Shown here: positions 29,460 to 32,104 of the stretch, one piece after another
How the letters are laid out: every line of letters starts with the position of its first letter
Position numbering within the stretch: the first letter of the stretch is position 1
Assembly (NCBI RefSeq): GCF_001425385.1
Contig: NZ_LMQO01000001.1
Span: 1,292,501 to 1,356,500, forward strand
Source: Sphingomonas sp. Leaf407
GTDB lineage: Bacteria; Pseudomonadota; Alphaproteobacteria; Sphingomonadales; Sphingomonadaceae
Reading direction: 5' to 3'
Length of the DNA stretch: 64,000 nucleotides
Program-made: the position numbers and the translations under genes
The notes under the pieces: model-generated
The model's input: only the letters and a program-made list of their open reading frames with translations
Databases searched by the model: none
Told to the model about the DNA's origin: nothing

Positions 29460-29726
29460 CTATCGCTTGCGCGTGACCATCGGGTCGGGCTTCGGCGGCG
29501 GTTTCCAGCCGGCGGGCGGCTCGACCCGCTGGCGGCTGGTGCCAAGCCCCATCGCGCCCGGCTGCTGGCGGGTCAGCCCGGCGGTGTCGGCAGCACGCGC
29601 GGCATCGGCCTCCGCACCGCCGCGCAGCAGCGCGATCCGGTCGCGCAACTGCCGCGCCCGCTCGAAATCGAGCGCGGCGGCGGCGGCTTCCATCTCGGCG
29701 CGCAGGGATTCGATCGTCTCGGTCAT
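29460..29726 (-). CDS. Small UVR-motif protein
   Basis: An 88-residue protein whose first 35 residues are a UVR motif: IESLRAEMEAAAAALDFERA followed by RQLRDRIALL. The motif is a helical hairpin that lets UvrB and UvrC bind each other and also occurs in Clp adaptors such as McsA. The rest is Pro- and Arg-rich and probably disordered. No other domain is present. It lies between the dienelactone hydrolase and DUF2218 genes on the same strand. The start at 29726 (MTETIESL) was preferred because upstream codons overlap the DUF2218 gene. Confidence 0.75.
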   Translation of the reverse strand: MTETIESLRAEMEAAAAALDFERARQLRDRIALLRGGAEADAARAADTAGLTRQQPGAMGLGTSRQRVEPPAGWKPPPKPDPMVTRKR

Positions 29727-29757
29727 GCGGGGCAAACGCACGACCGGGACGAACGGA

Positions 29758-30075
29758 TCAGCGCCAGTCGAAGGCGAGCGCGCCTTCACGAAAGGCGAAT
29801 CGGTCGAGGTGGCGAGCGACGGCCCCCTTCAGCCCGTCGAGCTGTTCGGCGGAGGTCGCATCGATACGGACGGTCAGCGCGTCGGTGCCGGCGTCGAACG
29901 TCACCAGCGCGTCGCCCGGATGGTCGGCACCACGCGCGTCCTTGGGAAACACGACGGTGCCATGGTCAGGGGTGAACTCGACGGTCAGGTTGTGCTGCCA
30001 GTGCTTGCAGAGCTGCTGGAGATAGCGGCTGGCATGCGGGGTCGGGACGGTCGCGGTGCTGGTGTGGGTGCTCAT
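29758..30075 (-). CDS. DUF2218 family protein
   Basis: A 105-residue protein matching the DUF2218 pattern: PTPHASRYLQQLCKHWQHNL at the start and VARHLDRFAFREGALAFDWR at the end. The biochemical role is unknown. As I remember, DUF2218 genes often stand near iron-siderophore interacting proteins or PadR-type regulators. Here its start overlaps the stop of the PadR-type regulator gene by four bases (ATGA), so the two form a translationally coupled pair. No signal peptide is present, so it should be cytoplasmic. Confidence 0.85.
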   Translation of the reverse strand: MSTHTSTATVPTPHASRYLQQLCKHWQHNLTVEFTPDHGTVVFPKDARGADHPGDALVTFDAGTDALTVRIDATSAEQLDGLKGAVARHLDRFAFREGALAFDWR

Positions 30076-30650
30076 AGCCGTTCGACCTTCTGTGCTGCGT
30101 CGTCGAGAATCGCGGCGACCGCATGGAGCGTATCGGCATCGATCTCGCTGCCGCTCAGCCGGTGGTGGATCGCGGCGCGAAGATTGGCCTTGGCGCGGTG
30201 GATCGGGCCACCGTCGGTGCGGGCGTGGCGTTCGCCCAGCGCCTGCAACCGGGCGAACAGCTCGGCGACCTGCGCGGAAGATTCGGCGAGATGCATGTGC
30301 CCGGCTTCGGTCGCGGCGAAGCGCTTGCGCGTGCCCTCGGCGGCCTGTTCCTCGGTCAGTCCCATGTCGGTCAGCAGCGTGAGCGTGGGATAGACGACGC
30401 CGGGACTCGGCGCATAGGCCCCGCCGCTCAACGCCTCGACCGCCTTGATGAGTTCATAGCCATGGCGGGGTTCGTCGGCGACGAGGCGCAGCAGGAGCAG
30501 CCGCAGTTCGCTCCCGTCGAAGATGCGCCGCCCGCCGCCGCCGCCGCCGCCGGGACGACCGCCCCGGCCCATCGGCCAGTCGCGACCGAACGGGCCGCCG
30601 CGTGAAGGATCGCCGCGGCCGGCGGCGTGATGGTGATGATGTGAAAACAT
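30072..30650 (-). CDS. PadR-family regulator with His-rich N-terminus, NfeR (YqjI)-like
   Basis: A 192-residue winged-helix repressor. The core SELRLLLLRLVADEPRHGYE, ELIKAVEALSGGAYAPSPGV and VYPTLTLLTDMG closely follow E. coli YqjI/NfeR, a nickel-binding PadR-type regulator of the ferric reductase gene nfeF. Like YqjI, it opens with a histidine run (MFSHHHHHAAGRGD) and a Gly/Arg-rich linker, which suggests metal sensing. The start at 30650 has AGGAA 5 bases upstream; an ATG at 30671 lacks a binding site. Two palindromic sites lie just upstream (30677-30726), consistent with autoregulation. The metal and target genes are inferred. Confidence 0.85.
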   Translation of the reverse strand: MFSHHHHHAAGRGDPSRGGPFGRDWPMGRGGRPGGGGGGGRRIFDGSELRLLLLRLVADEPRHGYELIKAVEALSGGAYAPSPGVVYPTLTLLTDMGLTEEQAAEGTRKRFAATEAGHMHLAESSAQVAELFARLQALGERHARTDGGPIHRAKANLRAAIHHRLSGSEIDADTLHAVAAILDDAAQKVERL

Positions 30651-30676
30651 CGGGTTCCTGTCGATTGCCATATCGC

Positions 30677-30726
30677 CAAGATATATCTTGATCGCTTCGC
30701 TGCAAGTAGGCTCAAGATATATTTTC
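30677..30726. promoter_or_regulatory. Candidate operators of the PadR-type regulator
   Basis: CAAGATATATCTTG at 30677-30690 is a perfect 14-base palindrome. A second copy matching 12 of 14 bases lies at 30713-30726. Both are AT-rich islands in GC-rich DNA. They stand between the regulator start (30650) and the divergent rarA start (30794), so they could control the regulator/DUF2218 pair and possibly rarA. Confidence 0.65.
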
Positions 30727-30793
30727 GCTGCATCGTTCGTCCGGTGTACCGCATCTGCTTGGCCGCCGGACGCGCCGCGCCTACATGTCGGGC

Positions 30794-32104
30794 ATGGCCG
30801 ACCTTTTCGCCGACTTCACGCCCCCCGCCCCCGAACCGGTCGCCGATGGGCCGCTGGCCGACCGTTTGCGGCCTGCCTCGCTCGGCGAGGTGGTGGGGCA
30901 GACGCATCTGACCGGTCCCGATGGCGCGATCGGGCGGATGGTCGCGGCGGGGCGGCTGTCGTCGATGGTGTTGTGGGGGCCGCCCGGCACCGGCAAGACC
31001 ACGATCGCGCGGCTGCTCGCGGCGGCGGTGGGGCTGCGCTATGCTCAAATATCGGCAGTATTTTCGGGTGTCGCCGATCTCAAGAAGGTCTTTGCCGAGG
31101 CACGTGACCACGGCCGGTTGGGCAAGCGGACGTTGCTGTTCGTCGACGAGATCCACCGCTTCAATCGCGCGCAGCAGGACGGGTTCCTGCCCTATGTCGA
31201 GGATGGCACCGTCACGTTGGTCGGGGCGACGACCGAGAATCCGTCGTTCGAGCTGAACGCCGCGCTGCTCAGCCGGGCGCAGGTGCTGATCCTCCACCGG
31301 CTGGACGCGGGCGCGCTCGCCGAGTTGCTGGCGCGGGCGGAAGGTGTCGAGGGACGCCCCCTGCCGCTCGACGAAGCGGCGCGCGCCGCGCTGATCGCCA
31401 GTGCCGATGGCGACGGGCGGTTCCTGCTCAATCAGGCCGAGACGCTGTTCGCGATTGCGCTGGACGCACCGCTCGATCCGGCGGGGCTGTCGGCGCTGCT
31501 CCAGCGGCGGGTGGCGGTGTACGACAAGGACCGCGAGGGGCATTACAACCTCATCTCCGCGCTCCACAAATCGCTGCGCGGATCGGACCCGCAGACGGCG
31601 CTCTATTATATGGCGCGGATGCTGAGCGCCGGCGAGGAACCGCTCTACGTGCTGCGGCGGCTGACGCGGTTCGCGTCGGAGGACATCGGCCTCGCCGACC
31701 CGCAGGCGCTGGTGCAGTGTCTTGCCGCCAAGGACGCCTATGATTTTCTCGGCAGTCCCGAGGGCGAACTGGCGATCGTGCAGGCGTGCCTCTACTGCGC
31801 GACCGCGCCCAAATCGAACGCGGCGTACACGGCGCAAAAGGCGGCGTGGAAATCGGCGCGCGAGACGGGATCGCTGATGCCGCCGCCATCGATCCTCAAC
31901 GCGCCGACCCGGCTGATGAAGGACATCGGCTATGGCAAGGGCTATGCCTATGACCATGACCATGCGGACGGGTTTTCCGGCGCGGATTACTGGCCCGAGG
32001 CAATGGCGGCGCAGCGCTTCTACGAGCCCAGCGGACGCGGGTTCGAGCAGCGGATCGCCGAGCGGATGACATGGTGGGACGAGCGCCGCCGGACCGGGGA
32101 GTGA
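30794..32104 (+). CDS. rarA: Replication-associated recombination protein A (AAA+ ATPase)
   Basis: RarA/MgsA is a clamp-loader-like ATPase that acts at stalled forks with SSB. The 436-residue product has Walker A WGPPGTGKTT at 61-70, Walker B LFVDEIHRFNRAQQD, the sensor region GATTENPSFELNAALLSR and the C-terminal tetramerisation part LISALHKSLRGSDPQTALYY. These are the family hallmarks. An ATG at 30785 is also in frame; 30794 (MADLFAD) matches homologues better. Its stop overlaps the GTG of the next gene by four bases. Confidence 0.95.
   Translation: MADLFADFTPPAPEPVADGPLADRLRPASLGEVVGQTHLTGPDGAIGRMVAAGRLSSMVLWGPPGTGKTTIARLLAAAVGLRYAQISAVFSGVADLKKVFAEARDHGRLGKRTLLFVDEIHRFNRAQQDGFLPYVEDGTVTLVGATTENPSFELNAALLSRAQVLILHRLDAGALAELLARAEGVEGRPLPLDEAARAALIASADGDGRFLLNQAETLFAIALDAPLDPAGLSALLQRRVAVYDKDREGHYNLISALHKSLRGSDPQTALYYMARMLSAGEEPLYVLRRLTRFASEDIGLADPQALVQCLAAKDAYDFLGSPEGELAIVQACLYCATAPKSNAAYTAQKAAWKSARETGSLMPPPSILNAPTRLMKDIGYGKGYAYDHDHADGFSGADYWPEAMAAQRFYEPSGRGFEQRIAERMTWWDERRRTGE

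Follow-up and report, generated by a model that had tools for sequence, protein, structure and literature searches.

What does an NfeR-type repressor control where no ferric-chelate reductase gene stands beside it, and what might the protein encoded in that place do? The question arises from the window, a 64,000-nucleotide stretch of the Sphingomonas sp. Leaf407 genome (contig NZ_LMQO01000001.1, positions 1,292,501 to 1,356,500), in which a regulator gene overlaps a gene for a DUF2218 protein. According to excerpts of the published account, E. coli nfeF is repressed by NfeR and nickel relieves the repression; deletion of nfeR in K. pneumoniae raises nfeF 85-fold, with sensitivity to nickel, dipyridyl, and peroxide all unchanged in those excerpts (PMC7981267). 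The adjacent SIP-type ferric-chelate reductase of this two-gene system is lacking in the window. NfeR and DUF2218 are joined in no title or abstract among the literature matches listed, with most subscription papers outside the coverage, and NfeR is unnamed in the excerpts examined from papers that mention DUF2218.

Results

Gene organization of the locus

The regulator gene lies on the minus strand, where its longest open reading frame spans 30072-30671, and the DUF2218 gene, encoding 105 aa, follows on the same strand at 29758-30075. The stop of the first and the start of the second share the four bases 30072-30075, exactly the overlap claimed in the original prediction, and its reading of the locus as a compact operon is supported. 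We compared the locus with the best 80 of 530 regulator relatives, a set drawn from Sphingomonadales, Caulobacter, Burkholderiales, and others that is biased to close kin; among the 35 of these in which the regulator is paired with DUF2218, 24 have ATGA or GTGA at the regulator stop.

The probable start codon of the regulator is ATG 30650, not ATG 30671, as an AGGA precedes the former at 30656-30659 and its ATGTT start is aligned in 12 loci. A start at ATG 30671 would leave only 5 bases to the operator described below. The most likely extent of the regulator is thus 30072-30650, which would yield a protein of 192 aa beginning MFSHHHHH.

Two further genes frame the pair. A gene for a UvrB/UvrC-motif protein (29460-29789, minus strand; PF02151, 5.7e-10; alternative ATG at 29726) occupies the same place in the window and in L003 and L004, the relatives nearest to it, and in this lineage is probably the operon's third gene. 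On the other side, a RarA/MgsA-type AAA+ ATPase gene (30785-32104, plus strand; PF12002, 4.6e-60) is a divergent syntenic neighbour, and a strict test, prone to undercounting, scores that orientation in 49 of the 80 best relatives.

Identity of the regulator

Alignment identifies the regulator as an NfeR-type PadR protein, as originally predicted. It matches the PadR profile PF03551 (E 1.4e-15) and shares 37% identity over 145 aa with E. coli NfeR (E 2e-30 in a two-sequence comparison). The assignment draws also on the operators, since in the E. coli genome sites with the same GATATATC core occur just before nfeR (TTAGATATATCTAA) and before nfeF (CAGATATATCTAA), and on residues that are invariant in both halves of the domain across 82 aligned core domains, comprising the 80 best relatives, the window, and E. 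coli itself. Among the residues invariant in all 82 are R115, N119, and D146 of the C-terminal half (aligned-segment numbering). In a sample of 119 genomes of the family, Leaf407 included, NfeR is present in 60 at E 1e-15.

The regulator N-terminus in one record titled Arthrobacter sp. TPD3018 (L010) is that of Sphingomonas aquatilis (L011), so the Arthrobacter label is probably wrong.

The five consecutive histidine codons that had been called at the regulator N-terminus are real (30627-30641, minus strand). The window extension holds these 5 His and no Cys in 47 residues, whereas E. coli NfeR carries a long stretch rich in both His and Cys. Across 78 proteins with a placeable start the extension is Gly-rich, with a median His content of about 5.5% against 2.1% in the core. 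Counts before the domain range from 0 to 15 His, with none in 3 of the 78 proteins and at least two Cys in one. His is likewise absent before the domain in 4 of 38 further loci (L217, L220, L222, and L223, the first of them paired with DUF2218; the 38 are what remained of 41 after three failed the pattern used). In the closest relatives, L003 and L004, no five-His run was found and each has one His before the domain; the starts of these two and of L021 were unplaceable by script and were read by eye. By these counts the extension is typical in style, yet residues in it that might bind metal are not conserved. Metal sensing by this regulator would consequently rest on kinship with NfeR, and nickel as its signal, with the histidine run as the sensor, gains no support from conservation.

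Predicted operators and promoter

Two predicted operators lie upstream of the regulator, in agreement with the tandem palindromes originally described: a proximal perfect palindrome, CAAGATATATCTTG (30677-30690, 14/14), whose GATATATC core is kept in relatives, and a distal copy (30713-30726, 12/14), 36 bases from the first. Allowing up to 3 mismatches, the window contains 2 matches where 0.28 would be expected; a count of 2 is also reached in 3 of 100 shuffles, so the pair by itself is modest evidence. The stronger proof is conservation. The GATATATC core recurs upstream of the orthologues in all 80 of the best relatives, which rules out a chance palindrome, and GATATATC is present in all 30 NfeR loci examined in the family sample (the best 30 of 60, the window among them). 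In 78 of the 80 relatives GATATATC precedes the regulator at no more than 450 bases from the domain; in the other two (L058 and L069) it lies further up, before long N-termini, and these are the sole copies elsewhere in 601,407 bases.

Judged by exact cores, tandem sites are not general: 14 of the 80 best relatives carry at least two, and a single one is the usual number. Where sites are in tandem their spacing is 36-37 in 12 aligned loci, 19 in L003 and L004, and 17 to 36 in others. The 12 loci were chosen for their tandem sites, with L003-L005 and L009 left out, and in them ATATATC, which falls in the distal operator, then CTTG, and then GATATATCTTG are invariant. We assign a putative -35 element, TTGCAG (30700-30705, minus strand), to the interval between the operators, where CTTG is invariant, and a putative -10 element, TATCTT (30678-30683, minus strand), to conserved columns within the proximal operator, with a 16-base spacer. 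A consensus promoter scan listed neither element, giving instead another site inside the gene. The two operators flank the invariant CTTG, the arrangement that autorepression would need, and the layout suggests a repressed promoter.

Within the 3.78 Mb Leaf407 genome the 12-base core AAGATATATCTT occurs in a single place. Exact GATATATC occurs in eight, and only the window copy both has AAGATATATCTT and clearly precedes a gene start. The other seven have different flanks, and a wide regulon is not seen in this exact-core scan. One of them (L089) is also a perfect 14-base palindrome, yet it lies within a 731-aa open reading frame; another (L088) is a 12-base palindrome within a 407-aa frame, two (L085 and L091) lie across or just past the starts of frames, and L084 and L090 fall within frames.

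The gene downstream of the regulator

DUF2218 follows the regulator in 35 of the 80 best relatives, standing without a small membrane protein in 25 and together with one in 10. A small membrane protein without DUF2218 takes the place in 25 more, a SIP-type, NfeF-like reductase in 8 (two confirmed by Pfam), and other genes in 12. The automatic gene calls behind these counts are rough, with a few rows (L041, L064) on the wrong strand over the regulator, and one relative (L082) was scored as a pair although its DUF2218 match is split over two frames. In the family sample, DUF2218 occurs in 51 of the 119 genomes at 54 places, of which 31 immediately follow NfeR in the same orientation and 23 are not beside it. 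Pairing thus extends to 31 of the 60 NfeR-bearing genomes, Leaf407 included; the remaining 29 NfeR genes lack a DUF2218 neighbour, and on these tallies the pairing is not universal. With the core conserved upstream of orthologues and the pairing present in relatives, the original prediction nevertheless withstands both of the checks that it proposed against itself.

Reductase genes are distributed differently. SIP domains occur in 13 of the 119 family genomes, among them 6 of the 29 with unpaired NfeR but just one of the 31 with a pair (G404), the other 30 lacking them. The original prediction had remarked that no nfeF-like gene is adjacent, and this can now be widened, as the whole Leaf407 genome has no match to SIP (PF04954) or FAD_binding_9 (PF08021) at E 0.001.

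Several neighbouring arrangements deserve separate mention. Thirty-five of the 80 best relatives have the small membrane protein, of about 150 aa (for example L018:4496-4957), after an NfeR-type regulator, and it is a second candidate target of NfeR; three members have three to four hydrophobic stretches each, and that of L018 is without a Pfam match. At another locus (L061:4450-5030) tandem DUF2218 genes follow the regulator, and the sequence of the first one is divergent. At a third (L169), an NfeR-DUF2218 pair has ferric-siderophore-type ABC transport genes just downstream on the opposite strand.

The DUF2218 protein and its neighbourhoods

The 105-aa protein matches the DUF2218 profile PF09981 over its full length (109.6 bits against a curated cut-off of 29.1, E 1e-31). 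This is its sole Pfam match, and the FAD- and NAD(P)H-binding domains of SIP reductases are absent. Its AlphaFold2 model (pLDDT 93.8) is closest among solved structures to 2jpi, PA4090 of P. aeruginosa (VIA-align Z 13.1, rmsd 1.9, 92 residues), which was deposited as a hypothetical protein. The fold was also considered as a clue to function; it further resembles the phosphomannomutase C-terminal domain (Z up to 11.0), the Roco COR domain (10.9), and TBP-like folds (about 8), and names no activity.

Of 398 genomes sampled across the phylum, 68 have DUF2218 above the curated cut-off. This sample gave 90 places, 79 of them above the cut-off, and 75 were examined, leaving out the window, three weak ones, and the 11 below the cut-off. 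All 11 places with NfeR beside them carry GATATATC in their 5.4-kb stretch, against one (L192) of the 64 without NfeR. In 12 of the 75 places DUF2218, FAD_binding_9, and SIP are fused in one protein, and 10 of these 12 lie beside ferric-siderophore-type transport genes. The fusions therefore point to the handling of iron chelates. Their reductase portion belongs to the family that is under NfeR control elsewhere, but here in one polypeptide with DUF2218; NfeR is in none of the 12 stretches, and GATATATC in one, that of L192.

The remaining 52 places hold stand-alone DUF2218 genes without NfeR. Ferric-siderophore-type transport genes lie beside 12, and the other 40 show no iron-transport gene within about 2.5 kb in a comparison with 17 E. 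coli iron proteins, which would miss other iron genes; these 40 counsel caution on a role in iron. Four of them had other neighbours: a gene of the glyoxalase family, an M29 peptidase, a nitroreductase, and a LysR regulator. In one alphaproteobacterial genus (L161-L168), the block around DUF2218 is conserved and includes a gene that in L161 is of the glyoxalase family, and the same comparison with 17 E. coli iron proteins found no iron-transport gene in these stretches.

Of the part in iron or nickel balance originally suggested for DUF2218, iron has indirect support, from the fusions (12/75) and the transport genes (12/52); nickel as the signal gains none from conservation. With the place that DUF2218 shares with NfeF under NfeR, the fusions make iron-chelate handling the best inference for its role. 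Excerpts of one paper describe a DUF2218 gene, mllG, within the methylolanthanin (lanthanide-metallophore) cluster of M. extorquens AM1, whose authors proposed a role in regulation or transport; they also note that VCA0233 of Vibrio cholerae adjoins an iron-uptake regulator (PMC11317620). Instead of NfeR, the regulators named there for the methylolanthanin cluster are a sigma factor and an anti-sigma factor.

Discussion

We propose that this locus is a self-regulating operon in which an NfeR/YqjI-type repressor controls itself and DUF2218 until a ligand binds, with DUF2218 handling chelated iron, and we regard this account as reasonably likely. The PadR repressor would bind at both GATATATC-type palindromes, which flank its promoter and overlap it, shutting down its own gene and the overlapping DUF2218 gene. 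Binding of a ligand would release the regulator from the DNA and allow DUF2218 to be made; the likeliest ligand is a divalent metal, for instance Ni or Fe, or one of its chelates. DUF2218 would fill the slot occupied by the ferric-chelate reductase NfeF in the NfeR systems of E. coli and of some beta- and alphaproteobacteria, and would most likely serve the same business as NfeF, the release or handling of chelated iron.

Much of this is shared with the E. coli NfeR (YqjI)/nfeF (yqjH) system, including the PadR repressor kinship, a variable N-terminal extension, operators with a GATATATC core, and a target beside the regulator. The two differ in the target itself, which in E. coli is a divergent SIP-type reductase gene and in the window is predicted to be a DUF2218 gene in the same direction that overlaps the regulator, and in the operators, which in E. 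coli stand before nfeR and nfeF whereas both window sites precede one gene. As read from sequence, then, repressor type and DNA code are those of the known NfeR system and the predicted target is another.

An alternative, which we consider unlikely, is that this is an ordinary NfeR with a nickel signal as in E. coli and that DUF2218 is a protein of nickel tolerance, not of iron. Relief of E. coli NfeR by nickel, as given in the excerpts cited above (PMC7981267), and the five histidines at the regulator N-terminus both agree with it, but the variable histidine content of the extension and the fusion of DUF2218 to ferric-chelate reductase domains argue against it. Improbable, in our estimation, is that DUF2218 is a passenger, the regulator being purely autoregulatory or directed at a distant target and its neighbour incidental. 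The gene downstream does vary by lineage, from DUF2218 to the membrane protein, the reductase, and others; against this, paired genes joined by short or overlapping junctions are found repeatedly, in Sphingomonadales, Caulobacter, and Acidocella loci, the operator accompanies every NfeR-linked DUF2218 gene of the phylum sample, and the Leaf407 genome offers no second AAGATATATCTT. It is very improbable that the regulator also controls the divergent rarA and ties the locus to DNA repair: the distal operator does end 59 bases before the rarA frame, rarA is divergent in many relatives, and the UVR-motif gene downstream would agree with such a tie, but the operator is kept without divergent rarA in Caulobacter, Burkholderiales, and E. 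coli loci, the UVR gene is seen at this place in the nearest relatives only, and the proximal operator lies at the regulator's start.

Returning to the self-regulating operon with DUF2218 as its target, we suggest tentatively a wider history, in which the NfeR regulon was rewired in many Sphingomonadales and Caulobacter and a stand-alone DUF2218 replaced NfeF. The protein would then be a factor for binding or releasing ferric chelates, working with an unlinked reductase or with none, and equivalent to the chelate-handling half of the DUF2218-SIP fusions.

DUF2218 is widespread and its structure has been solved, with no function found. The NfeR switch offers a route to learning when cells make it, and the SIP fusions indicate a reaction for which it can be tested. 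For the NfeR family, the locus suggests that one repressor-operator pair may keep its DNA code while the target gene is exchanged.
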